A stretch of DNA of 40,108 nt, from positions 1 through 40,108 of the forward strand of contig CAJOPH010000065.1 of assembly GCA_905236805.1 (NCBI GenBank), written 5' to 3'. The DNA comes from an uncultured Eubacterium sp. (GTDB taxonomy: Bacteria > Bacillota > Clostridia > Lachnospirales > Lachnospiraceae). The notes under the pieces were generated by a model that was not told the DNA's origin, did not search any database, and saw only the letters and a list, made by a program, of their open reading frames with translations. Shown here piece after piece: positions 5,244 through 36,348 of this stretch; position 1 is the first letter of the stretch; every line of letters begins with the position of its first letter. Made by a program: the position numbers and the translations under genes.

Positions 5244-6908
5244 ATGAACGAAAGGGAAGAAAAAGAAGAATTGGCAACAGGTGAAGGAAGGGGGGCAAAG
5301 ATAGCCCTGGCCGTGGGAGGCAGTATTTTTCTCATCCTCTTTATCGCATATCTGGTGGGGGTATTTTACTATCAGAATCATTATCTGCCGGGGACGCTGA
5401 TAAACGGCATAGACACTTCCAACCGCACGGATGAGAGCGTGGGGGAGGATTTTGAGGAGCAGGCAAAGACCTATTCGCTGACCGTGAAGGAAAGGAACGG
5501 CTCTGCCGAGACCATACAGGGTATCGACGTGGCGTTCAGGATGAGTTACGGTGAGTCCTTTGACAGGGTTTTGGCGGAGCAAAGCCCGTTCACATGGATA
5601 TTTACCCTGTTTTCCACTACGGAAGAGACGGTAAATCCCACCTCCATCAGTTTTGACGAAGAGGCCCTTGACGGGATAATAGATGAGCTCGACTGCATGG
5701 ATTCATCTACCTGGACGAAATGCGAAAACGCGAAGCTTTCCGAATATGACGAAGAGGAGGGCTACACCATAAAGGAAGCCGTCTATGGCACGACCCTTGA
5801 CAAGGACATAGCCGCCGAAGCCATCAGGGAGGCCATGAAAAAAGGTGACAGCGAGGTAGACCTTACCGCCACGGACTGCTATGAGCAGCCCGAATACACA
5901 TCGGATTCCCCCGAGGTGGAACAGATGCTTGATACCGCAAATAAATATGCCGATGCCGACATAAAGTATACCTTTGGCGATGACACGGAGGAGGTTGACG
6001 GCTCCGTCATCAGCGGGTGGATCTCCCAGAAAAAAAAGCCCGGGATAAACCTTGACGAAGACGCCATAGCGGACTACGTGGCAGGTCTTGCCGAAAAATA
6101 CGACACGGTGAACAAGGAAAGGAAATTCAAGTCCACCACGGGGGTGAAGGTCACGGTTCCGGCCGGTACCTATGGGTGGAAGATAGATCAGGAAGCCACG
6201 GTAAAGAGCCTTACCAAGCTCATAAAGGACGGAAAGTCCTATGAGGGAGACGTGGAGTATTCCCAGACGGCGGCCTCCCATGCCAAAAAGGATTTCGGGG
6301 ACACCTATGTGGAGGTAGACCTTTCCACACAGCACCTGTACTACTACAAGGACGGGAAGCAGGTAGTCTCTACGGACTTTGTGTCGGGATGCGTGTCGAA
6401 AAGCAGGGAGACACCTACGGGAGCCTACTATGTGGTCTACAAGCAGAAAGACGCCACCCTCAAGGGACAGGGGTATTCCACACCCGTGGATTTCTGGATG
6501 CCGTTTTTTGATGGCTGCGGGCTGCATGACGCTACCTGGAGGTCGTCCTTCGGGGGGACCATATACCTCTACCACGGATCCCATGGCTGCATAAACCTTC
6601 CCCTTTCGGTGGCGGAGACCATATTCGGGCAGCTGGAAGAGGGAACGCCCGTATTGGTATTTGAATCCGTGGACAATACCCAGAAGTACGCCTCCATAAA
6701 GGCTGCAGCAGCAGCGGCTGCGAAGAGGGCGGCGGAGGCTGCGAAGAAAAAGGCGAAAAAAGAATCCGAAGATGATGAAAAGTCATCCAAGAGCGACAAG
6801 AAAAAGTCAGGTGACTCATCTTCTTCCAAGAAAAAAAGTTCCGACAATTCATCATCAAAGAAAAAGTCGGACAGCAGTTCCAACAAGAAAAAAAAGAGCA
6901 GTGATTGA
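5244..6908 (+). CDS. membrane-anchored L,D-transpeptidase (PG-binding + YkuD) with Ala/Lys then Ser/Lys tail
   Basis: N-terminal TM (IALAVGGSIFLILFIAYLVGVFYY), YkuD catalytic motif LYHGSHGCINLP, low-complexity tail KAAAAAAAKRAAEAAKKKAKKESEDDEKSSKSDKKK...; ATG 5244 has SD-like GGGAAGAAAG. Confidence 0.9.
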   Translation: MNEREEKEELATGEGRGAKIALAVGGSIFLILFIAYLVGVFYYQNHYLPGTLINGIDTSNRTDESVGEDFEEQAKTYSLTVKERNGSAETIQGIDVAFRMSYGESFDRVLAEQSPFTWIFTLFSTTEETVNPTSISFDEEALDGIIDELDCMDSSTWTKCENAKLSEYDEEEGYTIKEAVYGTTLDKDIAAEAIREAMKKGDSEVDLTATDCYEQPEYTSDSPEVEQMLDTANKYADADIKYTFGDDTEEVDGSVISGWISQKKKPGINLDEDAIADYVAGLAEKYDTVNKERKFKSTTGVKVTVPAGTYGWKIDQEATVKSLTKLIKDGKSYEGDVEYSQTAASHAKKDFGDTYVEVDLSTQHLYYYKDGKQVVSTDFVSGCVSKSRETPTGAYYVVYKQKDATLKGQGYSTPVDFWMPFFDGCGLHDATWRSSFGGTIYLYHGSHGCINLPLSVAETIFGQLEEGTPVLVFESVDNTQKYASIKAAAAAAAKRAAEAAKKKAKKESEDDEKSSKSDKKKSGDSSSSKKKSSDNSSSKKKSDSSSNKKKKSSD

Positions 6909-6926
6909 CATTACCGGGGAGGGACC

Positions 6927-7916
6927 ATGAACTTAAAAGGAAGGGATTTTCTGACCCTTAAGGACTATACTCCTGAGGAGATATTGTACCTGATAGACCT
7001 CGCGCAGGAATATAAACAGAAAAAACATGCCGGGATACCGCATGATACCTTAAAAGGTAAGAATGTAGCGCTTATCTTTGAAAAGACAAGCACCCGCACG
7101 AGGTGTTCGTTCGAGGTGGCAGCGCACGATCTGGGGATGGGCACCACGTACTTAGATCCTTCGGGCTCCCAGATAGGAAAAAAGGAAAGCATAAAGGACA
7201 CGGCCAGGGTGCTCGATCGCATGTACGATGGCATAGAATACAGGGGATTCGGGCAGCACATAGTGGACGAGCTGGCAAAGTACGCCCAGGTGCCGGTGTG
7301 GAACGGACTGACCGATGAGTACCATCCCACCCAGATATTGGCAGATATGCTGACCATCAGGGAGGAGTTTGGGGAGCTTGAGGGGCTAAAGTTTGTATAC
7401 ATGGGGGATGCGCGCTTCAACATGGGCAATTCCCTCATGATAGGATGCTCCAAGCTGGGCATTGATTTTACCGCCTGCGCGCCGTCCTTGTATTTTCCTG
7501 ACCATGACCTCATAGAGGTCTGCGGCGAGTACGCCGAAAAGTCAGGTGCCAGGCTTACCTTCGAAGAGGACGTAAAAAAGGCTGTAAAGGATGCGAATAT
7601 CATATATACGGACGTATGGGTATCCATGGGCGAGGATGAAAAGGTATGGGAGGAGAGGATAAGGGACCTTACCCCCTACAGGGTGACACAGGAAGTGATG
7701 GATTGTGCAGCGGATAACGCCATCTTCCTCCACTGTCTGCCTTCTTTCCACGACACCAAGACCAGGGTGGGAAAGGACATATTCGACAAATTCGGCATCA
7801 GGGAGATGGAGGTCACGGACGAGGTCTTCGAGGGACCAAGGTCGCGCGTGTTTGATGAGGCGGAAAACAGGATGCACACCATAAAGGCAGTAATGGCCGC
7901 CACATTGGGAGCCTAG
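6927..7916 (+). CDS. argF: ornithine carbamoyltransferase
   Basis: [45 protein letters not shown]. Confidence 0.96.
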
Positions 7917-8252
7917 ATGTACCAGGATGAGGTCATACTCTGCGCGGCCAGCGCGTACGAGGAAAAATATTACCTGAATGAAGATTTTGCGAACCTCCCC
8001 TCCGGAGTAAAAGATGAGCTGAAGGTCATGTGCACGCTTTACACCATGGACATAGGGGGTATCCTCGAGGTCTATTATGACGAAGAAGGGAATCTGCACT
8101 TTAGGACCACGGCCCGGGAGGGGGATTTTTCCTATGATGAGATAGGCAGCGTCCTTAAGATAAAGCAGCTAAGGACAGAAAAAAGAGACCTCTTGGAATC
8201 CCTCGAGATGTATTTCAGGGTGTTTTTCCTTGGGGAGGAATACGGGGAATAA
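7917..8252 (+). CDS. small conserved protein of unknown function (possibly DUF6145 family)
   Basis: ORF starts directly after the argF stop and sits in the argF-coaX gene run; 111 aa acidic protein without recognised motif. Confidence 0.6.
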   Translation: MYQDEVILCAASAYEEKYYLNEDFANLPSGVKDELKVMCTLYTMDIGGILEVYYDEEGNLHFRTTAREGDFSYDEIGSVLKIKQLRTEKRDLLESLEMYFRVFFLGEEYGE

Positions 8253-8254
8253 AA

Positions 8255-9025
8255 ATGCTTCTGGCAATAGATGTAGGAAACACGAACATTACCTGTGGGA
8301 TATTCGACGGCTCAAAGATGGTGGCCACCTTCCGCATGACGACCAGGCAGGTGCAGACGTCGGATGAGTACGGGATGATACTTTCAAACCTTTTAAGGTC
8401 GAACAAGATTTCGGCGGAATCCATAGACGATATCTGTGTGGCGTCGGTCGTACCGAAGATCATGTACTCACTGGGGAGCGCGCTGATAAAATATTTCAAT
8501 ATCGTGCCGGTCACGGTAGATCACACATTGGAGACGGGAATCAGGCTGGATTTTCCCAATCCCGGACAGGTGGGCGCAGACAGGATAGTGGATGCCGTGG
8601 CGGCCTATGAGCTCTACGGCGGGCCTGTCATAGTCATAGACTTCGGGACGGCTACCACGTACGACATGGTCACGGAGGACGGTGCCTTCATAGGAGGCGT
8701 GACGGCTCCCGGTGTGCAGGGGTCTGCCGCGGCATTGTGGAACCTTGCGGCAAAGCTCCCCGAGGTCGAGATCAAAAAGCCATCGAAGATCCTTGGGAAG
8801 GATACCATATCCTCCATGCAGTCGGGCATAGTATACGGACAGATCGGACAGACCGAGGCCATAATACGAGGAATAAAGGAAGAGATGGGACTGAAGGAAA
8901 TAAAGACGGTGGCGACCGGGGGCATGGGAAACCTCATAGCCAATGAGACAGATTCCATAGACGTCTACAACCAGTCCCTCACCATGTATGGCTTGCAGAT
9001 CATCCACAGCAAGCAAAAAAAATAG
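8255..9025 (+). CDS. coaX: type III pantothenate kinase
   Basis: MLLAIDVGNTNITCGIFDG, DFGTATTYDMV, GGVTAPGVQGSAAALWNLAAKLP, ATGGMGNL. Confidence 0.95.
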   Translation: MLLAIDVGNTNITCGIFDGSKMVATFRMTTRQVQTSDEYGMILSNLLRSNKISAESIDDICVASVVPKIMYSLGSALIKYFNIVPVTVDHTLETGIRLDFPNPGQVGADRIVDAVAAYELYGGPVIVIDFGTATTYDMVTEDGAFIGGVTAPGVQGSAAALWNLAAKLPEVEIKKPSKILGKDTISSMQSGIVYGQIGQTEAIIRGIKEEMGLKEIKTVATGGMGNLIANETDSIDVYNQSLTMYGLQIIHSKQKK

Positions 9026-9035
9026 CTTACGAACG

Positions 9036-10004
9036 ATGAAGACACTGAAAATAGGATCCGTGCAGCTGAAAAACAGATACATACTGGCACCCATGGCGGG
9101 CACCACGGACATGGTGTTTAGGAGCATATGTTCATCCTTTGGCGCGGGGATGGTATGTACGGAGATGGTCAGCGCGAAGGCCGTAAGCTACGGGGACAAA
9201 AAATCCCAAGCCCTCATGGAGATATCCCCTGACGAGGCACCTGTTTCCCTTCAGATATTCGGCTCGGATCCTGTCCTTATGGGGGAGGTTGCGGCCGCGA
9301 TAGAAGGTCTGCCTTTTTCGATTTTGGATATCAACATGGGATGCCCCGTAAAAAAAGTCTTTGGCAACGGCGAGGGGTCAGCCCTCATGAAAGATCCTCA
9401 TCTTGCGGCAGATATAGTCAGACAGATCACAAGGCGCATAAAAAAACCCGTCACTGCAAAGATCCGCAGCGGTGTGGACGCCATGCACATAAACGCCGTG
9501 GAAGTCGCAAGGCGCCTGGAGGATGCGGGGGCATCCGCCGTGGCCGTGCACGGAAGGACCAGGGAGCAGCTCTACCGGGGGCAGGCAGATTGGGATGTGA
9601 TAAGGCAGGTGAAGGAGGCCGTGGACATTCCCGTGATAGGATCGGGGGATGTGACAGATCCTCCCTCAGCGGAAAGGATGCTTAGGGAGACGGGCTGCGA
9701 CGGGGTGATGATAGGAAGGGCAGCCCGGGGCAATCCATGGATATTCAAGGACCTTGAAGACTACGAGGAGAAGGGCACATACGGGGGAAGACCCGGCCCT
9801 TCAGGGATAAGGGATATGATACTTTACCATACCCAAAGGCTCATCGAACAAAAGGGCGAGCGCATGGCCATCCTCCAGATGAGGACCCATGCACCGTACT
9901 ATAGCAGGGGGCTTAGCGGGGCGGCCTCCCTTAGGGAAAAGATAAATAACGTAAATACATACGGGGAACTGGAAAAAGTCCTTGCATTTTTCCCCGAAAT
10001 GTGA
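9036..10004 (+). CDS. dusB: tRNA-dihydrouridine synthase
   Basis: KNRYILAPMAGTTD, DINMGCPVKKVFGNGEGSALM, VHGRTREQLYRGQADWDVI, VMIGRAARGNPWIF; ATG at 9036 in frame. Confidence 0.93.
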   Translation: MKTLKIGSVQLKNRYILAPMAGTTDMVFRSICSSFGAGMVCTEMVSAKAVSYGDKKSQALMEISPDEAPVSLQIFGSDPVLMGEVAAAIEGLPFSILDINMGCPVKKVFGNGEGSALMKDPHLAADIVRQITRRIKKPVTAKIRSGVDAMHINAVEVARRLEDAGASAVAVHGRTREQLYRGQADWDVIRQVKEAVDIPVIGSGDVTDPPSAERMLRETGCDGVMIGRAARGNPWIFKDLEDYEEKGTYGGRPGPSGIRDMILYHTQRLIEQKGERMAILQMRTHAPYYSRGLSGAASLREKINNVNTYGELEKVLAFFPEM

Positions 10005-10010
10005 TAGAAT
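9982..10010 (+). promoter_or_regulatory. candidate promoter for tRNA-Arg
   Basis: TTGCAT (9982-9987) - 17 nt - TAGAAT (10005-10010), preceded by TGA (extended -10 like). Confidence 0.55.
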
Positions 10011-10062
10011 ACTTATCTGTGTGGCTTTGACGGCAAAAGGACGCCACACCGGATGAAGACAT

Positions 10063-10133
10063 GTTCCCCTAGTTAAACGGATATAATAAGCGCCTCCTAA
10101 GCGCTAGTTGTGGGTTCGATTCCCGCGGGGAAC
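10063..10133 (+). tRNA. tRNA-Arg (anticodon CCT)
   Basis: Acceptor GTTCCCC/GGGGAAC, D-arm GTTA-AACGGATA-TAAT, anticodon arm AGCGC-CTCCTAA-GCGCT, T-arm GTGGG-TTCGATT-CCCGC. Confidence 0.95.
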
Positions 10134-10153
10134 GTTTATGGTAATGAGCAAAG

Positions 10154-10193
10154 AGTCACGGGCGCGCCGCCGAGGGTGCGTCTGTGGCTTTTT
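10154..10193 (+). terminator. terminator-like hairpin downstream of tRNA-Arg
   Basis: AGTCACGGGCGC ... GCGTCTGTGGCT can form ~12 bp including G-U pairs, followed by TTTTT. Confidence 0.55.
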
Positions 10194-10245
10194 CGCATAT
10201 AAGGAAAACAGCCGCTTTGCGGCACGCGCATAGGGCACTTGCGGG

Positions 10246-13200
10246 GTGACAGACATGGTTCAAAGGACATTTCTCATAGAAAACGATGAAGAATTTAACG
10301 CGATGCTGGAGAGCATATCACGGGATGACGCATGCAAAAGCGCGTCGTCAAGTCTCCTTGTGGCGTGTATCAATGACTGGGACCAAAGAGCGATAAAGGA
10401 GCATATCGCAAGGATATGCGCTAATGTTCCTGACCTCAAGGTGGCAGGCACTACCCACTATCAGGGACAGTGGGACTGGGGAAAGTCGAAAGAAAGATCC
10501 GCGTCCTTTAGTTTCGTTTTTTTTGATGAGGCAGATGCCCATGTGCATAGGATAGATGTGTCGGGCATGTCGGGCAAGGAAGCCGGAAGCAGATACCGTA
10601 AGGTCATCATGGGAATGGAGGATGTAAAGGGCGTTATGGTGTTTGTCTCCGGCACCTTTTTGCTGTTGGAGGATTTTTTCGGGGAGCTGGAAGATTTATC
10701 CATACCCTTTGTGGGAGCAAGGTCTGCCGCAAGGATAGAAGAGAAGATTCCGGATGACGGCGGATTTGAAGCCTATGTGATAGATGAAGAAGGTCCCCAT
10801 AAGAATTCGATCCTCCTTGCCGCCTTCTGCGGGAAGAATCTCCATGTGCATGCGGGCTACAGCTTCGGATGGTCTCCCATAGGGCGCAAGATGGAGGTGA
10901 CCCGTGCCTCAAACCCCGTTTTTATCGAGGAAATAGACAATCAGCCCGCAATAAAAATATTTGAAAAATACCTGAGGCTAAGGCCTTCGCAGATACATAT
11001 AGAAAACACATGTGAATTTCCCTTCCAGACCGAGCGAAAGGGGATGGTGGTGGGCAGGGTGTGCATGGCATCTTTGGAAAACGGGGTCGTATTTCTCTCG
11101 GGACCTTTGTACGAAGGGGAAAAGATCCGCTTCACATACGGAAACCACAGCGCCATATTTATGGATGCGGAGGAAAAAAGAAATGAAGTGGCTATGTTTG
11201 AGCCACAGGCCATCTTTCTTTCATGCTGCATGAACAGGATAGTGTACCTGGGGGATGAAGAGCAGCTGGAAATAGACCTTTTTAAGGATGTGTCGGATAC
11301 TTTGATGACCTTCCACGGGGCATCGGAAATCCTGATGATGGACGGCTCTGGGTCAGAATTAAATAGTGCGCTCTTGTCATTTTCGCTCCGGGAAGGTGAA
11401 AAGACCGGGAAGCAATACCACCTAAACAGCTTTAGGGACACAATAAAAAGCCTGTCCGACACGGAGGGCGATAATATCCCCATCCTGAACAGGCTGTTGG
11501 TGTTCCTTAGCGCAATGACGGGGGAGCTCGAGGAAGCCGCGGAGGCGGCAAATGTCGCAAACAGGGCAAAGACAGCCTTTTTGTCCAATATGTCCCATGA
11601 AATAAGGACTCCCATCAATGCGGTCCTTGGCCTGGACGAGATGATACTAAAGACCACGAAGGAAGAGGATACCAGGCGTTATGCGGCAGACATCCAAAGC
11701 AGCGGCAAGACGTTGCTTTCCCTGATAAATGATATCCTGGACACATCCAGGATGGAGTCGGGGCGCATGGAACTCATTGAGGAAGAGTATGACCTCTCAT
11801 CCATGATCAACGACCTGGCAAACATGATCATGGTAAAATCAAAAGAAAAGGGACTAAGGTTTACCGTGGCGGCAGACCCCAATCTTCCCACCATCCTCTG
11901 CGGGGATGAGAACAGGGTGAAGCAGTGCGTGCTAAATATCCTGACCAATGCCGTTAAATACACGAAGGAAGGGAGCGTCACCATGAAGGTCTCCTTCGAA
12001 CGCAAGAGCGAAGACACAATACTTCTTACCTTCCATGTGAAAGATACGGGCATAGGCATAAAGGAAGAAGACATCCCGAGGCTTACGAAGCCATTCGAAA
12101 GGATAGAGGAGGAAAGAAACAGAAACATCGAAGGTACGGGGCTGGGGATGAGCATAGTCACGCAGCTCCTTGACCTTATGGGATCAAGACTGGAGCTGGA
12201 GAGCGTATATGGCGTGGGGTCGGATTTTCATTTCACCATAGAGCAGAAGGTGGTAAGGGACGATCCCATAGGGAATTTTTCGAAAAGTTACCAGAACTAC
12301 ATCAGGGAAAGCACGAAATACAAAGAAAGCTTCCGGGCACCCTCCGCAAAGATCCTCGCGGTGGACGACACGAAGGTAAACCTCGTCGTCCTGAAAGGTC
12401 TTTTGAAGGAAACCCAAATGGAGATAACGACCGCCTCTTCCGGTGCCGAGGCTCTTGAGGCCGTAAAGAAGGAAGGCTTTGACATCATCTTCTTGGACCA
12501 GAGGATGCCCGGGATGGATGGGATACAGACGCTGGAAAAAATGAGGCAGCTGGAAAACAACCTATCATCGGGGGCTCCCGTCATCATGCTGACGGCCACG
12601 GCGCAGCTGGGGGCCAGGGAAGAGTTTCTAAGGAAGGGCTTTACGGACTACCTTTCAAAGCCCATAGACAGCACGAAGTTAAAGAGGATGGTAAGGCACT
12701 ACCTTCCCCCGGAGAAGGTGATTTTGGAAGGGGAAGAAGGCCGATCCGGGGGAGGTGCCGCAAATGAAAGTGTCCCATCCAAATATGAATCAGACTTCTT
12801 AAACCATATGGCCTCGGTAGAAGGCGTGGATGTGGATATGGGCATAGAAAACTGCGTGGATGAAGACATCTATATGGATGCGGTAAAGAGCTTTGTGAGT
12901 GCCCACGAAAAAAACATAAAAGACCTTGAGACATTCAAGGAACAAAAAGACCTTAAAAATTATACCATTTTGGTTCACGGGATAAAGAGCTCATCGAGGC
13001 TCATAGGGGCAGCAGGGCTCTCGGATCTCTCAAGGAACCTCGAAGACTGGGGAAACCTCAAAGAAACAAAGGAATTAGAAGCATATACCCCAGGCTTCAT
13101 AGAAAAATACAATAAGATAACTAAAGACCTCAAGGCCGCGCTTGAGGAAGCGGAAAACGAAAAAGATAAAGAAGGAAAGCCCCATCCCCCGATAGGAAAA

Positions 13201-28576: not shown

Positions 28577-30625
28577 ATGAACAGGAGATATGAAGCCCTT
28601 CTGTCACCCCTCAAAGTCAGGGACGTGATATACAGAAACAGGATGCTTTCCACGGCGTCCACACCACATTTCCTTCAGGGAAAGGAGCCCTACCCCACGG
28701 AGAAGATCATCACGCATTTCGCGAACAGGGCCAAAAGCGGGGCGGCCGCCGTGTCGATAAACCATTTCCACACGGACGACATGCCGCTGCACGGAAGATC
28801 CATAGACAATCCCCCCTCGCATTTTAATCTCTACGACATAGAGAACGGCACCTGTCAGAACTACCTCTGTCAGCTGATAGACGCCATACACTTTTACGGG
28901 GCAAAGGCCAACGGCTACATCATGGCAGACCCCGCATGGCTTTCTCCCGACGGGGAAAAACCAGAGCCCCCCATGGGGCCGCCCCCCGGAATGGGACCAA
29001 AAGAGCCCGAAAGCACACAGACAGACTGGGCCCGTTCCGCGGAGGACGACAGTTTCTTTCAGATAGATATATCCTCCATCACCCGCGAACAGATGGATGC
29101 CTACATAAGCAACGTAGCCAGGGAGGCGTCAGACTTAAAGCGCCTGGGATTTGACATCATTTCCATGCACTGCTGCTACCGTCACAGCCCCCACGCAATG
29201 TTCGCGTCACCCCTTACGAATCACAGGACGGATGAGTACGGGGGATCCGTAGAAAACAGGAACAGGTTCCTTATAGAGATATTTACGGCCATAAGGAAGG
29301 AAGTGGGACCTTCCACCCCGCTGGAGATAATATACTCCGTATCAGAGCCCAAGGGCGGCTACACGGTGGAAGATACCATAGAGTTCGCAAAGATGGCGGA
29401 CGGTCTCATAGATATTTTGCATCTTCGTTCGGGGGACATGGATCCCCAGCACCCCCTGGGGTACACCTCCACGGAGGAGAATCCCGCTCCCTACTTGGAG
29501 GAGATGGGAAGGGTCACCAAGGCGGTGCATGACCTTGGGCTTAATATGGTGGTCGCCGCGTCGGCGGGCTTCCAGGATCCGGAGCTGGCGAACAGGGCGG
29601 TAGCCGAAGGAAAGGCAGACCTCATAGGCATGGCCAGGGCATGGATCAACAATACCGACTATGGAAAGAAGGTCTACGAAGGAAGGGGTGAGGACATCAC
29701 GCCTTGCATACGCTGCAACAAATGTCACGTGCCCTGCGGAAAGGATATGTGGAGAAGCTTTTGCTCGGTAAATCCTTTGGTAGGCCTAGAAGACAAGATT
29801 GAACGTATGGTCGACCCACCGAAAGATGTAAAGAAGGTGGCGGTAATAGGAGGAGGCGTAGCCGGCATGGAATACGCAAGGATCGCGGCGCAGCGAGGCC
29901 ACAAGGTTACACTCTTTGAAGCCACAGACGCCTTAGGAGGCCAGCTAAAGCATGCGGATCACGCATCCTTCAAATGGCCGTTAAAGCAGTTCAAGAACTG
30001 GATGATAGCACAGATGGAAAAGGAAGGGGTCGATGTAAGGCTAAATACAAAGGTCTCCCCCGAAGAAATAAGGGACGGGGGATATGACGCCGTGGGCATA
30101 GCCGTAGGGTCTGCCCCGGCAGCGCCTTATCTTCCCGGAATAGATGGAAAAAACGTGCATTATGCCTCACAGATATACGGCGAGCCCGCCAAGAGCCTCT
30201 CTGATGACATCGTTATGATAGGAGGCTCGGACGTCGGCGTGGAGACGGCGCTTTACCTGTGCGAGATGGGCAAGAAGGTAAAGGTGCTTGAAATGGCATA
30301 CGAACTCATAGAGGACGCGCCCCATGCACACTACAAGAACATGGTGCACAATTATTGGATGGCGCAGCCTAATTTCTCATTTCAGTGCGGCGTAAGGGTC
30401 ACCTCCATAGACGAAGGGGGCGTAAATTACACAGACCATAAGGGAAAAGAAGGCAGAGTCAAATGTACGGACGTTCTTTTGGCCATGGGCTCAAAGCCCA
30501 ATACCGATCTTGCGTTCTCCTTTGCGGACACTGCCCCCATCGCCCATGTCCTTGGGGATTGCGAGAGGGCATCCGCGGTGCAGAGGGCCATGAGGACGGC
30601 ATTTTCACTGGCATCTACCCTGTAA
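28577..30625 (+). CDS. old-yellow-enzyme / 2,4-dienoyl-CoA reductase-like FMN + Fe-S + FAD oxidoreductase, divergent active site
   Basis: OYE-like N-terminal barrel (TNHRTDEYGGSVENRNRFLIEI), Fe-S ligands CIRCNKCHVPCGKDMWRSFCSVNP, Rossmann VAVIGGGVAGMEYARIAAQRGHKVTLFEA and IVMIGGSDVGVETALYL. Confidence 0.88.
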   Translation: MNRRYEALLSPLKVRDVIYRNRMLSTASTPHFLQGKEPYPTEKIITHFANRAKSGAAAVSINHFHTDDMPLHGRSIDNPPSHFNLYDIENGTCQNYLCQLIDAIHFYGAKANGYIMADPAWLSPDGEKPEPPMGPPPGMGPKEPESTQTDWARSAEDDSFFQIDISSITREQMDAYISNVAREASDLKRLGFDIISMHCCYRHSPHAMFASPLTNHRTDEYGGSVENRNRFLIEIFTAIRKEVGPSTPLEIIYSVSEPKGGYTVEDTIEFAKMADGLIDILHLRSGDMDPQHPLGYTSTEENPAPYLEEMGRVTKAVHDLGLNMVVAASAGFQDPELANRAVAEGKADLIGMARAWINNTDYGKKVYEGRGEDITPCIRCNKCHVPCGKDMWRSFCSVNPLVGLEDKIERMVDPPKDVKKVAVIGGGVAGMEYARIAAQRGHKVTLFEATDALGGQLKHADHASFKWPLKQFKNWMIAQMEKEGVDVRLNTKVSPEEIRDGGYDAVGIAVGSAPAAPYLPGIDGKNVHYASQIYGEPAKSLSDDIVMIGGSDVGVETALYLCEMGKKVKVLEMAYELIEDAPHAHYKNMVHNYWMAQPNFSFQCGVRVTSIDEGGVNYTDHKGKEGRVKCTDVLLAMGSKPNTDLAFSFADTAPIAHVLGDCERASAVQRAMRTAFSLASTL

Positions 30626-31375: not shown

Positions 31376-31439
31376 AGGATAAGGTTAGATTTAACTAACT
31401 TTATTGACGAAATATCAATCAATAAAGGAATCGGGTTTT

Positions 31440-32813
31440 ATGAAAAATATCCTTAAGTATTTGAAGATCTTCATTCCGGGAACGGTATCGGTGTGCCTTG
31501 TGGCAGCAGGCGCCCATGCTTTTTGTGCGCCCGACCTTCCTGAAAGGGAAGTCTATGCGTACTCCCTGCTGGACGGGAGCCTTTCCGCGGATGGCGCATC
31601 GTCAGGGGACGCGGTGAACTCGGCCATCAAAGCATCCAAGAAAAAGGTAAAAAGAAAAGAAAAACCCGCACAGAAAAATTCCGGTGAGATTCCTGCTATA
31701 TCTAAGGTGGCAGAGGATTCAAACGCCACATATAAGGACGGGACGTTCAGGGGGTCTGCGCAGGGCTACGGGGGGACGACCACCGTGGATGTGACCATAA
31801 AGAATTCTAAGATAAAGAATATTTCGGTGGTTTCCCATCACGATGACGCCTCGTTTTTTTCAAAAGCCAAACCCCTGCTTTCCCTGATGGTAAAGGAGCA
31901 GACCACGAATGTGGATGCGGTCTCGGGAGCCACGTTCAGTTCGGCCGGGTTGATAGGAGCCACAAGGGCGGCATTAAACAAAGCGAGGGTGGACGGTAAG
32001 GCGGATGAGAGTGACTCATCAGACAAAACGAGCAAAGATTCAGATGACAAAAAATCCAATTCCACGAAAAACAATACTTCCACTTCCATAGAGCTCCCCT
32101 CGAACGCCTCCCCCGGGAATTTCCCGTATGAAGATGGAACCTATGAAGGAGTCGGTGAAGGCTTTGGGGGCGACGTGGTGGTGGATGTGACCATCAAGAA
32201 TCAGACCATCATCGAGATTTCGGTGAAGGAAGCCGCGGATGAGACGCCTGAATATTTTTCAAAAGCCGTTAAAATCCTGGATGCGATATTGGAAAATCAG
32301 GACACGGACGTGGATGCCGTATCGGGAGCCACGTTCAGCTCGAACGGGATACTGGATGCGATAGCGGATGCGCTTTCCAAGGCGCCTAAGATACAGGATA
32401 CCGGTGAATCCGAAGACAAGACAGATACATCCGAAGACGAAACAGGGACGGACGTAGCCGGAGACGCGTCCGGGACTGCACAGACACCTTCCTGTCTTTA
32501 CAATGATGGAGAATATACCGTTACCGTAAGGTGCCGTCCCGATGAGGATGAAGATTTTGATGAATATGAGATAACATTGACCATCACCCTGGAGAATGAC
32601 CATATCACGGATATCTCCGTAGATGATATTTCAGACATGTCAAACAAAGCCTTTGTAAACATGGCTCTGAGGGGAATGAAGGATGGCTTTTTAGGGATAT
32701 CTGATTTAACGGCATATGACGATTCGGCGGTGGATGCGGTTTCCGGCGCCACCTGTTCTTCGGAGAGCCTCAAGGAGGCCGTAAAAGAAGCGTTGGATGA
32801 GGCCGCAAAATAA
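31440..32813 (+). CDS. secreted/anchored protein with three FMN-binding (flavinylation-site) domains
   Basis: N-terminal hydrophobic segment; VDAVSGATFSS twice plus VDAVSGATCSS; domain starts such as YKDGTFRGSAQGYGGTTTVDVTIKN and YEDGTYEGVGEGFGGDVVVDVTIKN. Confidence 0.9.
   Translation: MKNILKYLKIFIPGTVSVCLVAAGAHAFCAPDLPEREVYAYSLLDGSLSADGASSGDAVNSAIKASKKKVKRKEKPAQKNSGEIPAISKVAEDSNATYKDGTFRGSAQGYGGTTTVDVTIKNSKIKNISVVSHHDDASFFSKAKPLLSLMVKEQTTNVDAVSGATFSSAGLIGATRAALNKARVDGKADESDSSDKTSKDSDDKKSNSTKNNTSTSIELPSNASPGNFPYEDGTYEGVGEGFGGDVVVDVTIKNQTIIEISVKEAADETPEYFSKAVKILDAILENQDTDVDAVSGATFSSNGILDAIADALSKAPKIQDTGESEDKTDTSEDETGTDVAGDASGTAQTPSCLYNDGEYTVTVRCRPDEDEDFDEYEITLTITLENDHITDISVDDISDMSNKAFVNMALRGMKDGFLGISDLTAYDDSAVDAVSGATCSSESLKEAVKEALDEAAK
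31723..32371 (+). repeat. tandem duplicated FMN-binding domain coding units 1 and 2
   Basis: Similar nucleotide blocks, e.g. GTCTCGGGAGCCACGTTCAGTTCG (about 31921) and GTATCGGGAGCCACGTTCAGCTCG (about 32320). Confidence 0.75.
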
Positions 32814-32852: not shown

Positions 32853-33350
32853 GTGAAGCAGTTTCTGACAAGATTCATAAATGTGTTTGCGGTGGTTTTC
32901 GCAATCGTTATTTTTAATAAATACGTAGTGGAAGAAACTGAAGGCTACGAGGATAAGAAGGAAAGCATAGAGGCATACAATTCCATCGTGGAGGAGCGCC
33001 TCAAAGCTGATATCGAGAGGCAAAAAGAACTGGAGGGTTCCTCATCGGGGGACGCGTCCGGTAATATGGGCGCGGATTCATCGTCCTTTGACGGCGTTTA
33101 CGAAGGCACCGGGGAGGGCTATGGCGGTTCCGTCACGGTTTCTGTCACCATATCGGGAGGCAAAATATCAAATATAGACATAATATCCGCAAAGGATGAG
33201 GATCCTGAATATTTTTCCATGGCGGTGGGACTTACGGACAAGATCATCTCCGGCCAGACCACGGATGTTGACACTGTTTCGGGTGCCACGTTCTCTTCTT
33301 ATGGGATCATAGACGCCGTAAATGACGCGTTGGGGAATGCCGGGCTATGA
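32853..33350 (+). CDS. membrane-anchored single FMN-binding domain protein
   Basis: N-terminal TM FINVFAVVFAIVIFNKYVV; GVYEGTGEGYGGSVTVSVTISGGKISNIDII; VDTVSGATFSSYGIIDAVNDAL. Confidence 0.9.
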   Translation: MKQFLTRFINVFAVVFAIVIFNKYVVEETEGYEDKKESIEAYNSIVEERLKADIERQKELEGSSSGDASGNMGADSSSFDGVYEGTGEGYGGSVTVSVTISGGKISNIDIISAKDEDPEYFSMAVGLTDKIISGQTTDVDTVSGATFSSYGIIDAVNDALGNAGL

Positions 33351-34216
33351 ATAAAAAGAGGGCGCTTAGGGCCGAGGTTACCAGGCATGTGATCCAGGTC
33401 GTGTTTTTCATACTTGCTCCCGGGCTTTATGCCGGCGCGTTTTCAGGTGTCAAATATATCTTTACGCAGGTAGGGGCGGGAGCCATGATAGAAAAGAATT
33501 CCTTCATGGTGACGCTGGTTCTTCTATGCGTATTTACCATGATCTTTGGAAGATATTTCTGCGGCTATGCCTGCGCTTTCGGGACTTTGGGAGACTATGT
33601 CTTTTTGTTAAGAAAGGGCTTTGAAAAGCTTATTAAGAAAAAGCTTCCCAAGATTCCCCAAAAAGCGGGGAAGGCTTTGGATTACTTAAAATACATTATA
33701 CTTTTAGCTATTATTGCGGCATGTTTTGCGGGTGTGTACGACAAGGCTCGGGGGTATTCGCCCTGGGATGTTTTTTCCATGTTAAGGGCTTTGAAGCCAA
33801 GGCTTGAGGGATATGGCCTGGGAGTGGGACTTATGATCGCGATCCTCGTTGGAATGGTTTTCCGGGAGCGTTTTTTTTGCAGGTTTTTGTGCCCAATGGG
33901 CGCGGTATTTTCCCTCCTTCCCATGAACCCGTTTTTTACCATCAGAAGTGACAGGAAAAAGTGCCTGCCGAAGTGCAGGTCATGTATAAATAATTGCCCC
34001 GCGAATCTTCAGGTCGGGGATGACAGGACACAGCAGGATTGCTTTCAGTGCGGACAATGCGTGAACAAATGCCCGAAGAAGCATATCACGTCGGGATTTG
34101 GGGGAAAAGCACCGGATGAATCTGGCTTTAGTGGTGCAAAAGGAGATGAACCTTGGTGGATGATAGGAAGGGGTGTGCTCCTGGCAGGCTTGTGGGCATA
34201 TTTTTTGGGGATTTAA
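33347..34216 (+). CDS. NapH/NosR-like 4Fe-4S membrane polyferredoxin
   Basis: Multi-TM with FCGYACAFGTLGD, FFCRFLCPMGAVFSLLP, CLPKCRSCINNCP, CFQCGQCVNKCPKKHI; ATGA overlap with upstream gene. Confidence 0.88.
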   Translation: MNKKRALRAEVTRHVIQVVFFILAPGLYAGAFSGVKYIFTQVGAGAMIEKNSFMVTLVLLCVFTMIFGRYFCGYACAFGTLGDYVFLLRKGFEKLIKKKLPKIPQKAGKALDYLKYIILLAIIAACFAGVYDKARGYSPWDVFSMLRALKPRLEGYGLGVGLMIAILVGMVFRERFFCRFLCPMGAVFSLLPMNPFFTIRSDRKKCLPKCRSCINNCPANLQVGDDRTQQDCFQCGQCVNKCPKKHITSGFGGKAPDESGFSGAKGDEPWWMIGRGVLLAGLWAYFLGI

Positions 34217-34365: not shown

Positions 34366-36270
34366 ATGAAAAACATTTTCACGAAAAGGCTGTTAGCATT
34401 CGGGCTATCAGCTGCGATGGCGCTTCCATTTGCGCCGGTTTCAGGACTTACCGCAAATGCGGCAGACGGGGATTTCTACGTCCTCATGAACATCCCGTAT
34501 GAGCAGTTCTATGCTGCGGAGATCAATGACGGTGATAATACAGTGGATGTGGTGACCTCTGCGACATCAGACTTTAAGACAAACAACTACAGTCTGTTTG
34601 CGGGTTCCTATCATGTGAACATTGACTCGGACGGAGACGGGACAAACGACAAGAGTACCATAAACGGGGTTACCTATCCCGTCAAGGTTCCGGCGGGGAC
34701 AGACCTTTCTAAGTATACCAAGGTGGATGATAGCACCACGGCCACGGCAGAGTGGAGCGTACATGGGACTACCAGCTCGCAGAATCTTGAGGGAAAGGAT
34801 TGCCTTTTCACGGAAGGCGATTACGCTTACTATGAATATGCCGCAAATGAGACTCCATCTGTTTATAAAGAGCTGACGGTGGAATCGGACGGATCTTTGT
34901 CTTTTTCCAAGTCGAATGCGGAGGTTACCGAAGGGAAGGATTTTGAATGCAAGCTTGATACGGAATCCAAATACGGGGACTACCAGCTTTCCCTTTCAGG
35001 GGACGGTTTCTCCTTTGCTACCGTTTTAGGCGTGGTGGTTTCAACGGCGGAGCGGGATTACGCGATGCGTCACCTCGAAAACATCTGGAGGGGTGGGTCA
35101 TCCATAGCATGGACCACGGGCTTTACGCTTCAGGAATCACATGGCAACGACATTTCCTGCATGGCGGATTACTACAAAGACATAATGGGGCAGACCATCA
35201 AAGCCATCACCGTGATAGGAACAGATTCTGATGGAAATTATGTCACGGTTAAGTATACCGCGGACAATTATGTGGCAATAAAAAATGGCGCGTCTGTTTC
35301 TGTTACATCTGAAAAGGTTACGGATGCGGATGCATCGGTAGACGTAGCCGTTGCAGGTGACAATGACGGCGTATATACGGTTTACAAAATAGATGGCGAA
35401 GATGTTACCGTAACGGACGGAAAAGCCGATATTTCCACTTTGGGACTGTCAGTGGGATCACATACGCTTTCAGTGGTTGACAGCGATGCGAAATATGCTG
35501 TCATCTCTACGAAATTCGTGATAAATACTGACAAAGTGGTAGCCGCGTATGACGCGTCATCAAAGACCGTGACAGCGGCAGAGGGAGTATCCGATGAGGA
35601 ATTCAAGGCATTTGTTTCCGGGATTTCTTCCGTAGCCATATCTTCGGCATCTGTTGAGGAAAAGACTTATAACGCAGATGGTAAGGGAGCGGTTACCGTA
35701 ATAAATGAAGATGGGTCTATTGACCTTTCCAAGACGGATTTTGCGGAAACGACGGACAATGAGCTGACATTCAAGGTTTCTTCCACGGGATATCCGGACC
35801 TGACCTTTACTTATACCGTGAAGGAAGATGAAGCTTCGCCTACGGGTGAGACTCCCGCACAGGGGGGAGACAGTACGGGAAGCGGGACGGGAACACAGAC
35901 GCCTGCTGACGGGACACAGACATCTACTACAGGGACTACCGAGCCTGCCGCAGGGTCTTCAGGAGGTGATACGAGTCAGGGAGAGGCCGAGACTTCCTCA
36001 GAGCTTTCAAAGGCTACGATCTCTGTTAGCAAGACGACCGTTAAGAAGGGCAAAAAGACTGTCATCAAGGTTACATCGGATTCGGGCGCAAAGGTGACAG
36101 TCAAGGCTGCAAATAAGAAGGCAAAGAAAGTAAAGATCAAAAATGGAAAGACCGCAAAGATCACGTTTACAAAGAAGGCAGCTAAGGGAACCTATAAATT
36201 CAAGGCAACATCGCCTGCTACGTCAAATTACAAGAAAGCGGCAAAGACCTTCAAGATAAAAGTAAAGTAA
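34366..36270 (+). CDS. secreted Tp47-like (penicillin-binding Tp47 domain family-like) surface protein with Lys-rich C-terminal domain
   Basis: Signal peptide MKNIFTKRLLAFGLSAAMALPFAPVSGLTANAA; YVLMNIPYEQFYAAE...VDVVTSATSD...GVTYPVKVP pattern recalled from Tp47-like proteins; Thr/Gly linker; C-terminal KATISVSKTTVKKGKKTVIKVTSDS. Confidence 0.65.
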   Translation: MKNIFTKRLLAFGLSAAMALPFAPVSGLTANAADGDFYVLMNIPYEQFYAAEINDGDNTVDVVTSATSDFKTNNYSLFAGSYHVNIDSDGDGTNDKSTINGVTYPVKVPAGTDLSKYTKVDDSTTATAEWSVHGTTSSQNLEGKDCLFTEGDYAYYEYAANETPSVYKELTVESDGSLSFSKSNAEVTEGKDFECKLDTESKYGDYQLSLSGDGFSFATVLGVVVSTAERDYAMRHLENIWRGGSSIAWTTGFTLQESHGNDISCMADYYKDIMGQTIKAITVIGTDSDGNYVTVKYTADNYVAIKNGASVSVTSEKVTDADASVDVAVAGDNDGVYTVYKIDGEDVTVTDGKADISTLGLSVGSHTLSVVDSDAKYAVISTKFVINTDKVVAAYDASSKTVTAAEGVSDEEFKAFVSGISSVAISSASVEEKTYNADGKGAVTVINEDGSIDLSKTDFAETTDNELTFKVSSTGYPDLTFTYTVKEDEASPTGETPAQGGDSTGSGTGTQTPADGTQTSTTGTTEPAAGSSGGDTSQGEAETSSELSKATISVSKTTVKKGKKTVIKVTSDSGAKVTVKAANKKAKKVKIKNGKTAKITFTKKAAKGTYKFKATSPATSNYKKAAKTFKIKVK

Positions 36271-36310
36271 AAGAGGTCGGATTCGCTGAATAAAGTTGAT
36301 TTAGCTGACA

Positions 36311-36348
36311 AAGGAGGAAGGCGCAGCCTTCCTCCTTTTATCTTTTCT
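36311..36348 (+). terminator. Rho-independent terminator after the Tp47-like gene
   Basis: AAGGAGGAAGGC-GCA-GCCTTCCTCCTT followed by TTATCTTTT. Confidence 0.85.

Follow-up and report, generated by a model that had tools for sequence, protein, structure and literature searches.

The locus described here raises the question of whether a surface protein encoded beside a set of flavin-carrying proteins is itself a flavin carrier. The window, by which we mean the whole 40,108-nucleotide stretch of DNA that was analysed, contains an open reading frame (the 34366 ORF) whose 634-residue product comprises a signal peptide (about residues 1-33), a Tp47-like domain (about 35-310), repeats, a Ser/Thr/Gly-rich linker and a basic C-terminal domain. 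A sequence-only reading had placed the string DVVTSATS at residues 61-68 of this product, and translation shows the placement to be exact. The motif with which the string had been compared, DAVSGATFSS, is indeed read in the adjacent FMN_bind proteins, together with DTVSGATFSS; both proteins are matched by Pfam (E-values in Table 1). Targets of ApbE have the heptad D-x-[IALVF]-[ST]-G-A-[ST] (PMC10722498, PMC12052999), and the acceptor in known ApbE substrates is the last residue of the heptad (PMC12052999). DVVTSAT fits this consensus at six of seven positions, with Ser at position 5 where the consensus has Gly. From the resemblance to the adjacent proteins and to a stretch of Tp47, it had been proposed that the N-terminal domain of Tp47 is a divergent relative of FMN_bind, either still a flavin acceptor or a degenerate, repurposed docking domain, and that a poorly understood surface-protein family would thereby be linked to flavin redox chemistry.

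The setting of the ORF is given in Table 1. The three flavin and polyferredoxin genes all lie upstream of it and run in the same direction, and a scan of the + strand listed neither terminator-like nor promoter-like sites between the polyferredoxin gene and the ORF. The genome encodes one ApbE, whose gene lies on contig 41, the window being on contig 65. With respect to compartment, this sole ApbE is exported and bears a lipobox near its N-terminus, and the 34366 ORF product bears a signal peptide. Upstream of the flavin cluster, and behind an oligopeptide ABC transporter, the window also encodes an Old-yellow-enzyme/dienoyl-CoA-reductase-type flavoprotein (Oxidored_FMN and Pyr_redox_2; 28577-30625).

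Table 1. Features of the flavin gene cluster and of the 34366 ORF in the window
Feature	Position	Strand	Evidence
Protein with three FMN_bind domains (multi-flavinylated type)	31404-32813	+	Pfam FMN_bind, 3 stretches, E 3e-40
Single FMN_bind protein, N-terminal membrane anchor	32853-33350	+	Pfam FMN_bind, E 6e-17
Membrane polyferredoxin (NosR-like, Fer4_5 and 4Fe-4S)	33347-34216	+	Pfam Fer4_5, E 6e-14
Exported Tp47-related surface protein, 634 aa	34366-36270	+	ORF; hhalign against Tp47 A+C alignment
Tp47-like (A+C type) domain, query for searches	34465-35310	+	Homologues in 39/396 same-family genomes
ApbE-type heptad D61-V-V-T-S-A-T67 plus S68 (DVVTSATS)	34546-34569	+	Translation; conservation in 51 homologous copies
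Thr67 codon, predicted FMN acceptor	34564-34566	+	Last heptad residue; T 50/51, S 1/51
Intrinsic-terminator-like hairpin closing the cluster	36310-36338	+	13-bp stem, then T-rich tail

Tp47 is a well-studied syphilis antigen and a major lipoprotein of T. pallidum whose physiological role has long been debated. The label "Tp47-like" that had been given to the window protein holds at the level of the superfamily, though not as a Pfam match. Searches of NCBIfam, Pfam and PDB sequences with the window protein alone returned nothing meaningful, the Pfam scan containing no PBP-Tp47 match; weak retinol-binding and ExtJ matches were put down to chance. A single-sequence AlphaFold2 model (mean pLDDT 34, pTM 0.20) was unusable for fold comparison. 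The kinship is reached only through intermediates. When 47 window-type domains were aligned by hhalign with eight Tp47 A+C regions plus 1o75, the match extended over 176 columns (E 4.1e-12, probability 97.6%) and included the heptad region, an "I-x-G-V-x-V-P-V" strand, and the pairing of "YGxxHxxNxW" with "YGTKxxADxW"; the N-terminal 34 columns alone gave E 2e-10. Relatives of the window protein show weak Pfam matches to PBP-Tp47_a, one over the cut-off (L006, E 3.5e-6) and one below it (L008, E 0.0034). Further, a 1774-residue polypeptide in G032 holds both kinds of domain in one chain, in the order FMN_bind, FIVAR, window-type domain, Shr-like_HID, PBP-Tp47_a, PBP-Tp47_c (E about 1e-71 and 1e-75), second window-type domain and wall anchor. 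Because of the profile alignment and this intermediate, the superfamily-level label is right: judged by these comparisons, the 34366 ORF product is a divergent relative of Tp47. The stretch of T. pallidum Tp47 that had been named as similar is also real, since the 1o75 chain reads ...GMFDAVSRATHGHG..., with the heptad DAVSRAT.

Across 51 homologous copies of the domain, the heptad is strongly conserved. Position 1 is Asp in 50 copies and Glu in one; position 4 is Ser or Thr in 50; position 5 is Ser (40), Thr (7), Arg (3) or Lys (1), and Gly in none; position 6 is Ala (44), Val (4) or Pro (3); and position 7 is Thr in all copies except one with Ser. The two ends of the heptad, D61 and T67, are within the top five conserved of about 270 domain positions, and the inner positions vary. 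The whole D..[ST].A[ST] pattern is intact in 42 of the 51 copies despite an identity of about 30%. True Tp47_a domains carry D-x-V-[ST]-R-A-T. A conserved D-x-x-[ST]-x-A-T pattern, the absence of which, together with an unrelated fold, had beforehand been taken as refuting, is found in most copies and in Tp47; the heptad is a hallmark of the family, and the original observation was correct but understated. A degenerate seven-residue pattern can of course arise by chance. Among 111,779 residues of 315 other genes at the same loci, D.[VFIM][ST][STRK]A[TS] occurs once (0.0025 per 282 residues), and a looser version, D..[ST].A[ST], has a background of 0.015 per 282 residues. The family-wide conservation, the presence of the heptad in Treponema Tp47, and the genomic context all contradict a chance resemblance, which we consider extremely improbable.

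In a sample of 396 genomes of the window's own bacterial family, 39 carry the Tp47-like domain. FMN_bind or ApbE genes adjoin the Tp47-like gene, or are fused to it, at 40 of 43 loci inspected. The three exceptions are two short contigs (L077, L092) and a 19-kb stretch (L073/L097) without a flavin gene; the Tp47-like gene of the latter (8252-10585) is the single copy with Glu at heptad position 1. In a first type of operon, represented by 24 loci, the Tp47-like gene, usually the last one, is accompanied by genes for multi-FMN, FMN and polyferredoxin proteins and mostly also by apbE. In a second type, represented by 11 loci (L055, L059, L060, L065, L068, L069, L072, L078, L079, L086 and L087), the Tp47-like gene, often with a lipobox, adjoins a gene for a multi-TM protein with a C-terminal FMN_bind domain; this protein is Ferric_reduct-like at several loci, and its gene is sometimes followed by apbE. 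The seven copies with Val or Pro in place of Ala at position 6 all belong to this second type. Several copies, some of them outside the bacterial family, are fused to FMN_bind in the same polypeptide. The existence of two operon designs and of these fusions argues against mere hitch-hiking. ApbE is encoded in all 39 carrier genomes and in 319 of the 357 others (Fisher p 0.016, the genomes being related and taken as independent). No more members of the window-like form came up when the whole phylum was searched; the form is thus concentrated in one bacterial family, with rare members at the levels of order and class. A search of viral contigs found no relative. At some loci (L006, L008, L010, L062, L077), Shr-like_HID (PF07550, called heme/haemoglobin-interacting) lies C-terminal to the Tp47-like domain, and a heme link of these proteins is possible.

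Homologues of Tp47 itself, with PBP-Tp47_a/_c or weak matches to these models, occur in the same kind of cluster within the window's own class. At one locus (L089), the gene order is apbE, four-FMN protein, FMN protein, polyferredoxin, and a genuine Tp47 homologue (6859-8628; E 2e-24 with PDB 1o75). A second genuine homologue (L082:4652-7003) takes the corresponding place in its flavin electron-transfer cluster. A third locus (L095; homologue at 5872-10614), from another family of that class, has a Tp47-type domain with DAVSRAT, two window-type domains, a multi-FMN gene and apbE. Such operons, in which ApbE, a multi-FMN protein and a polyferredoxin are encoded together, are the first functional context that we found for the Tp47 family.

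The link that had been suggested between this surface-protein family and flavin redox chemistry is therefore borne out by the flavin electron-transfer genes at 40 of 43 loci. Taken together, the conserved ApbE-type heptad and these gene neighbours indicate that the family probably has an extracellular electron-transfer function, and we regard its participation in flavin-based electron transfer as very likely. A different explanation begins from the name of the Pfam family, which derives from the penicillin-binding activity of Tp47: the conserved D...T...K/H could have a catalytic or structural role in a hydrolase of the Tp47 type, the flavin neighbours reflecting a cell-surface role only. Most copies do have a Lys (His in Tp47_a) 3 or 4 residues past the Thr, which is faintly [ST]xxK-like. 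This explanation leaves the 40 flavin loci, the two operon designs, and the FMN_bind fusions unaccounted for, and we find it very unlikely.

The common heptad and the frequent fusions to FMN_bind domains could also reflect descent, as the sequence-only reading supposed in taking the Tp47 N-terminal domain for a divergent FMN_bind. The profile comparisons do not bear this out. The window protein has no FMN_bind match in Pfam; hhalign of the window family against FMN_bind (a 77-position domain) covered nothing beyond the motif (14 columns, probability 10%); and true Tp47_a against FMN_bind gave 10 columns only. In the Tp47 domain the motif is found close to the beginning, in FMN_bind close to the end. 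Folds unrelated to FMN_bind are established for other ApbE substrates (PMC10979944), among which are NqrB, DUF2271, DUF3570, Flavodoxin_4 and FMN_red (PMC8238504, PMC10979944). Since only the motif aligns and substrates of unrelated fold are known, the simplest reading is that the Tp47-like domain is another such class. By analogy with DUF2271, DUF3570 and Flavodoxin_4, a putative ApbE site in a domain unrelated to FMN_bind is the better reading, and common descent with FMN_bind appears quite improbable.

Whether the heptad is in fact modified is the more delicate matter. The Tp47-like domain could be a partner of the chain that is not flavinylated, serving as an electron acceptor or in substrate binding or docking, with the heptad as a structural or binding element or the remnant of a former site; it might, for example, receive the FMN borne by its FMN_bind neighbour. 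Such a partner would be expected in the same genomic context, and the FMN_bind proteins alone would explain the adjacent apbE, which counts against the reading of the Tp47-like heptad as an ApbE site. The main doubt regarding that reading is that position 5, which is Gly in known substrates, is never Gly here, and a second is the Val or Pro at position 6 in seven copies, in which Asp and Thr persist. In one tested substrate, a Gly-to-Ala change at position 5 roughly halved flavinylation (PMC12052999). Two observations speak against a non-flavinylated partner. The pattern is kept whole in most copies at low overall identity, and genuine FMN_bind domains of the same operons, although they have Gly at position 5 in 113 of 128 neighbouring domains, also carry Arg, His, Lys, Ser or Thr there (DTVSRAT, DMVSRAT, DAVSHAT, DAVSKAT, DVVSSAT), typically in the last domain of a multi-FMN protein. 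Either the local ApbE enzymes are tolerant or these domains are likewise unmodified. The variant with Arg or His for Gly in the last domain (DTVSRAT, DTVSHAT) recurs at loci L056, L057, L061-L064, L067, L070, L071 and L084, and bears on ApbE specificity. We judge the non-flavinylated partner unlikely, if still a serious competitor.

We favor instead, with modest confidence, a model in which the 34366 ORF product, an exported cell-surface protein of the wider Tp47 superfamily, forms the outer end of an extracytosolic electron-transfer chain based on flavin. The membrane polyferredoxin would hand electrons to the single FMN_bind protein, from which they would reach first the three-FMN protein and finally the 34366 ORF product. 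D61-V-V-T-S-A-T67 would be an ApbE recognition site, and ApbE, encoded elsewhere in the genome, would attach FMN to Thr67, so that the Tp47-like domain would act as a redox-active flavoprotein, either terminal or relay. Flavinylation at Thr67, the predicted acceptor, is likely; of the two fates originally proposed for the domain, that it is still a flavin acceptor is the best reading. The prediction is specific to a single residue, namely FMN on the Thr of D-x-x-[ST]-x-A-T. If it is true, the occurrence of Ser, Thr, Arg and Lys in place of Gly would widen the ApbE target motif.

A larger question is whether this prediction extends to the whole Tp47 superfamily, such that T. pallidum Tp47 would also be an ApbE-flavinylated extracytosolic redox protein, with FMN on the Thr of DAVSRAT. 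We put this forward tentatively, as a possibility that we rather doubt; if it is true, the role of Tp47 would be electron transfer and not cell-wall synthesis. To our knowledge, there is no report of flavin in Tp47, though the recombinant protein would not meet a periplasmic ApbE. In T. pallidum, the ApbE homologue Ftp (TP0796) and TP0171 are listed among the periplasmic lipoproteins by a survey of the organism's proteins, in which Tp47 (TP0574) is reported too; the modifications covered by the 2016 proteomics searches were Met oxidation and Cys carbamidomethylation only (PMC5015957). A review describes TP0171 as bearing an ApbE motif. Among the papers searched, none joins Tp47 with flavin and FMN, and none names PF14889, PBP-Tp47 or "Tp47 domain"; the two main flavinylation surveys mention neither Tp47 nor penicillin-binding proteins.

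With regard to known systems, the window protein shares with Tp47 (TP0574, PDB 1o75; PF14889 PBP-Tp47_a, PF14888 PBP-Tp47_c) its export, the heptad, and kinship over both the A and C domains. It differs in lying below Pfam detection, in having Ser for Arg at position 5, in its C-terminal domains, and in belonging to a flavin operon from another phylum. FMN_bind (PF04205; RnfG, NqrC, PplA) has the same ApbE-type heptad and is a neighbour or fusion partner at nearly all loci; its motif, however, is near the C-terminus of the domain, whereas the Tp47-type motif is near the N-terminus, lacks Gly at position 5, and is flanked by no profile similarity. Meheust et al. 2021 (PMC8238504) described multi-flavinylated gene clusters that also encode large, unannotated proteins of the cell wall, in which FIVAR and other wall-binding domains were noted; the cluster in the window and those related to it belong to this type. 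The main text of that study contains no mention of Tp47, penicillin-binding or PBP, and does not propose the wall proteins as ApbE substrates. A parallel to our prediction is found in DUF2271, DUF3570, Flavodoxin_4 and FMN_red, in which, as in the Tp47 type, an ApbE-type motif occurs in an unrelated domain beside apbE; there, the apbE neighbourhood and the motif correctly predicted the substrates (PMC8238504, PMC10979944). Those four are proven by co-expression; the Tp47 superfamily does not belong to that list and is a predicted class, with a motif that lacks Gly.
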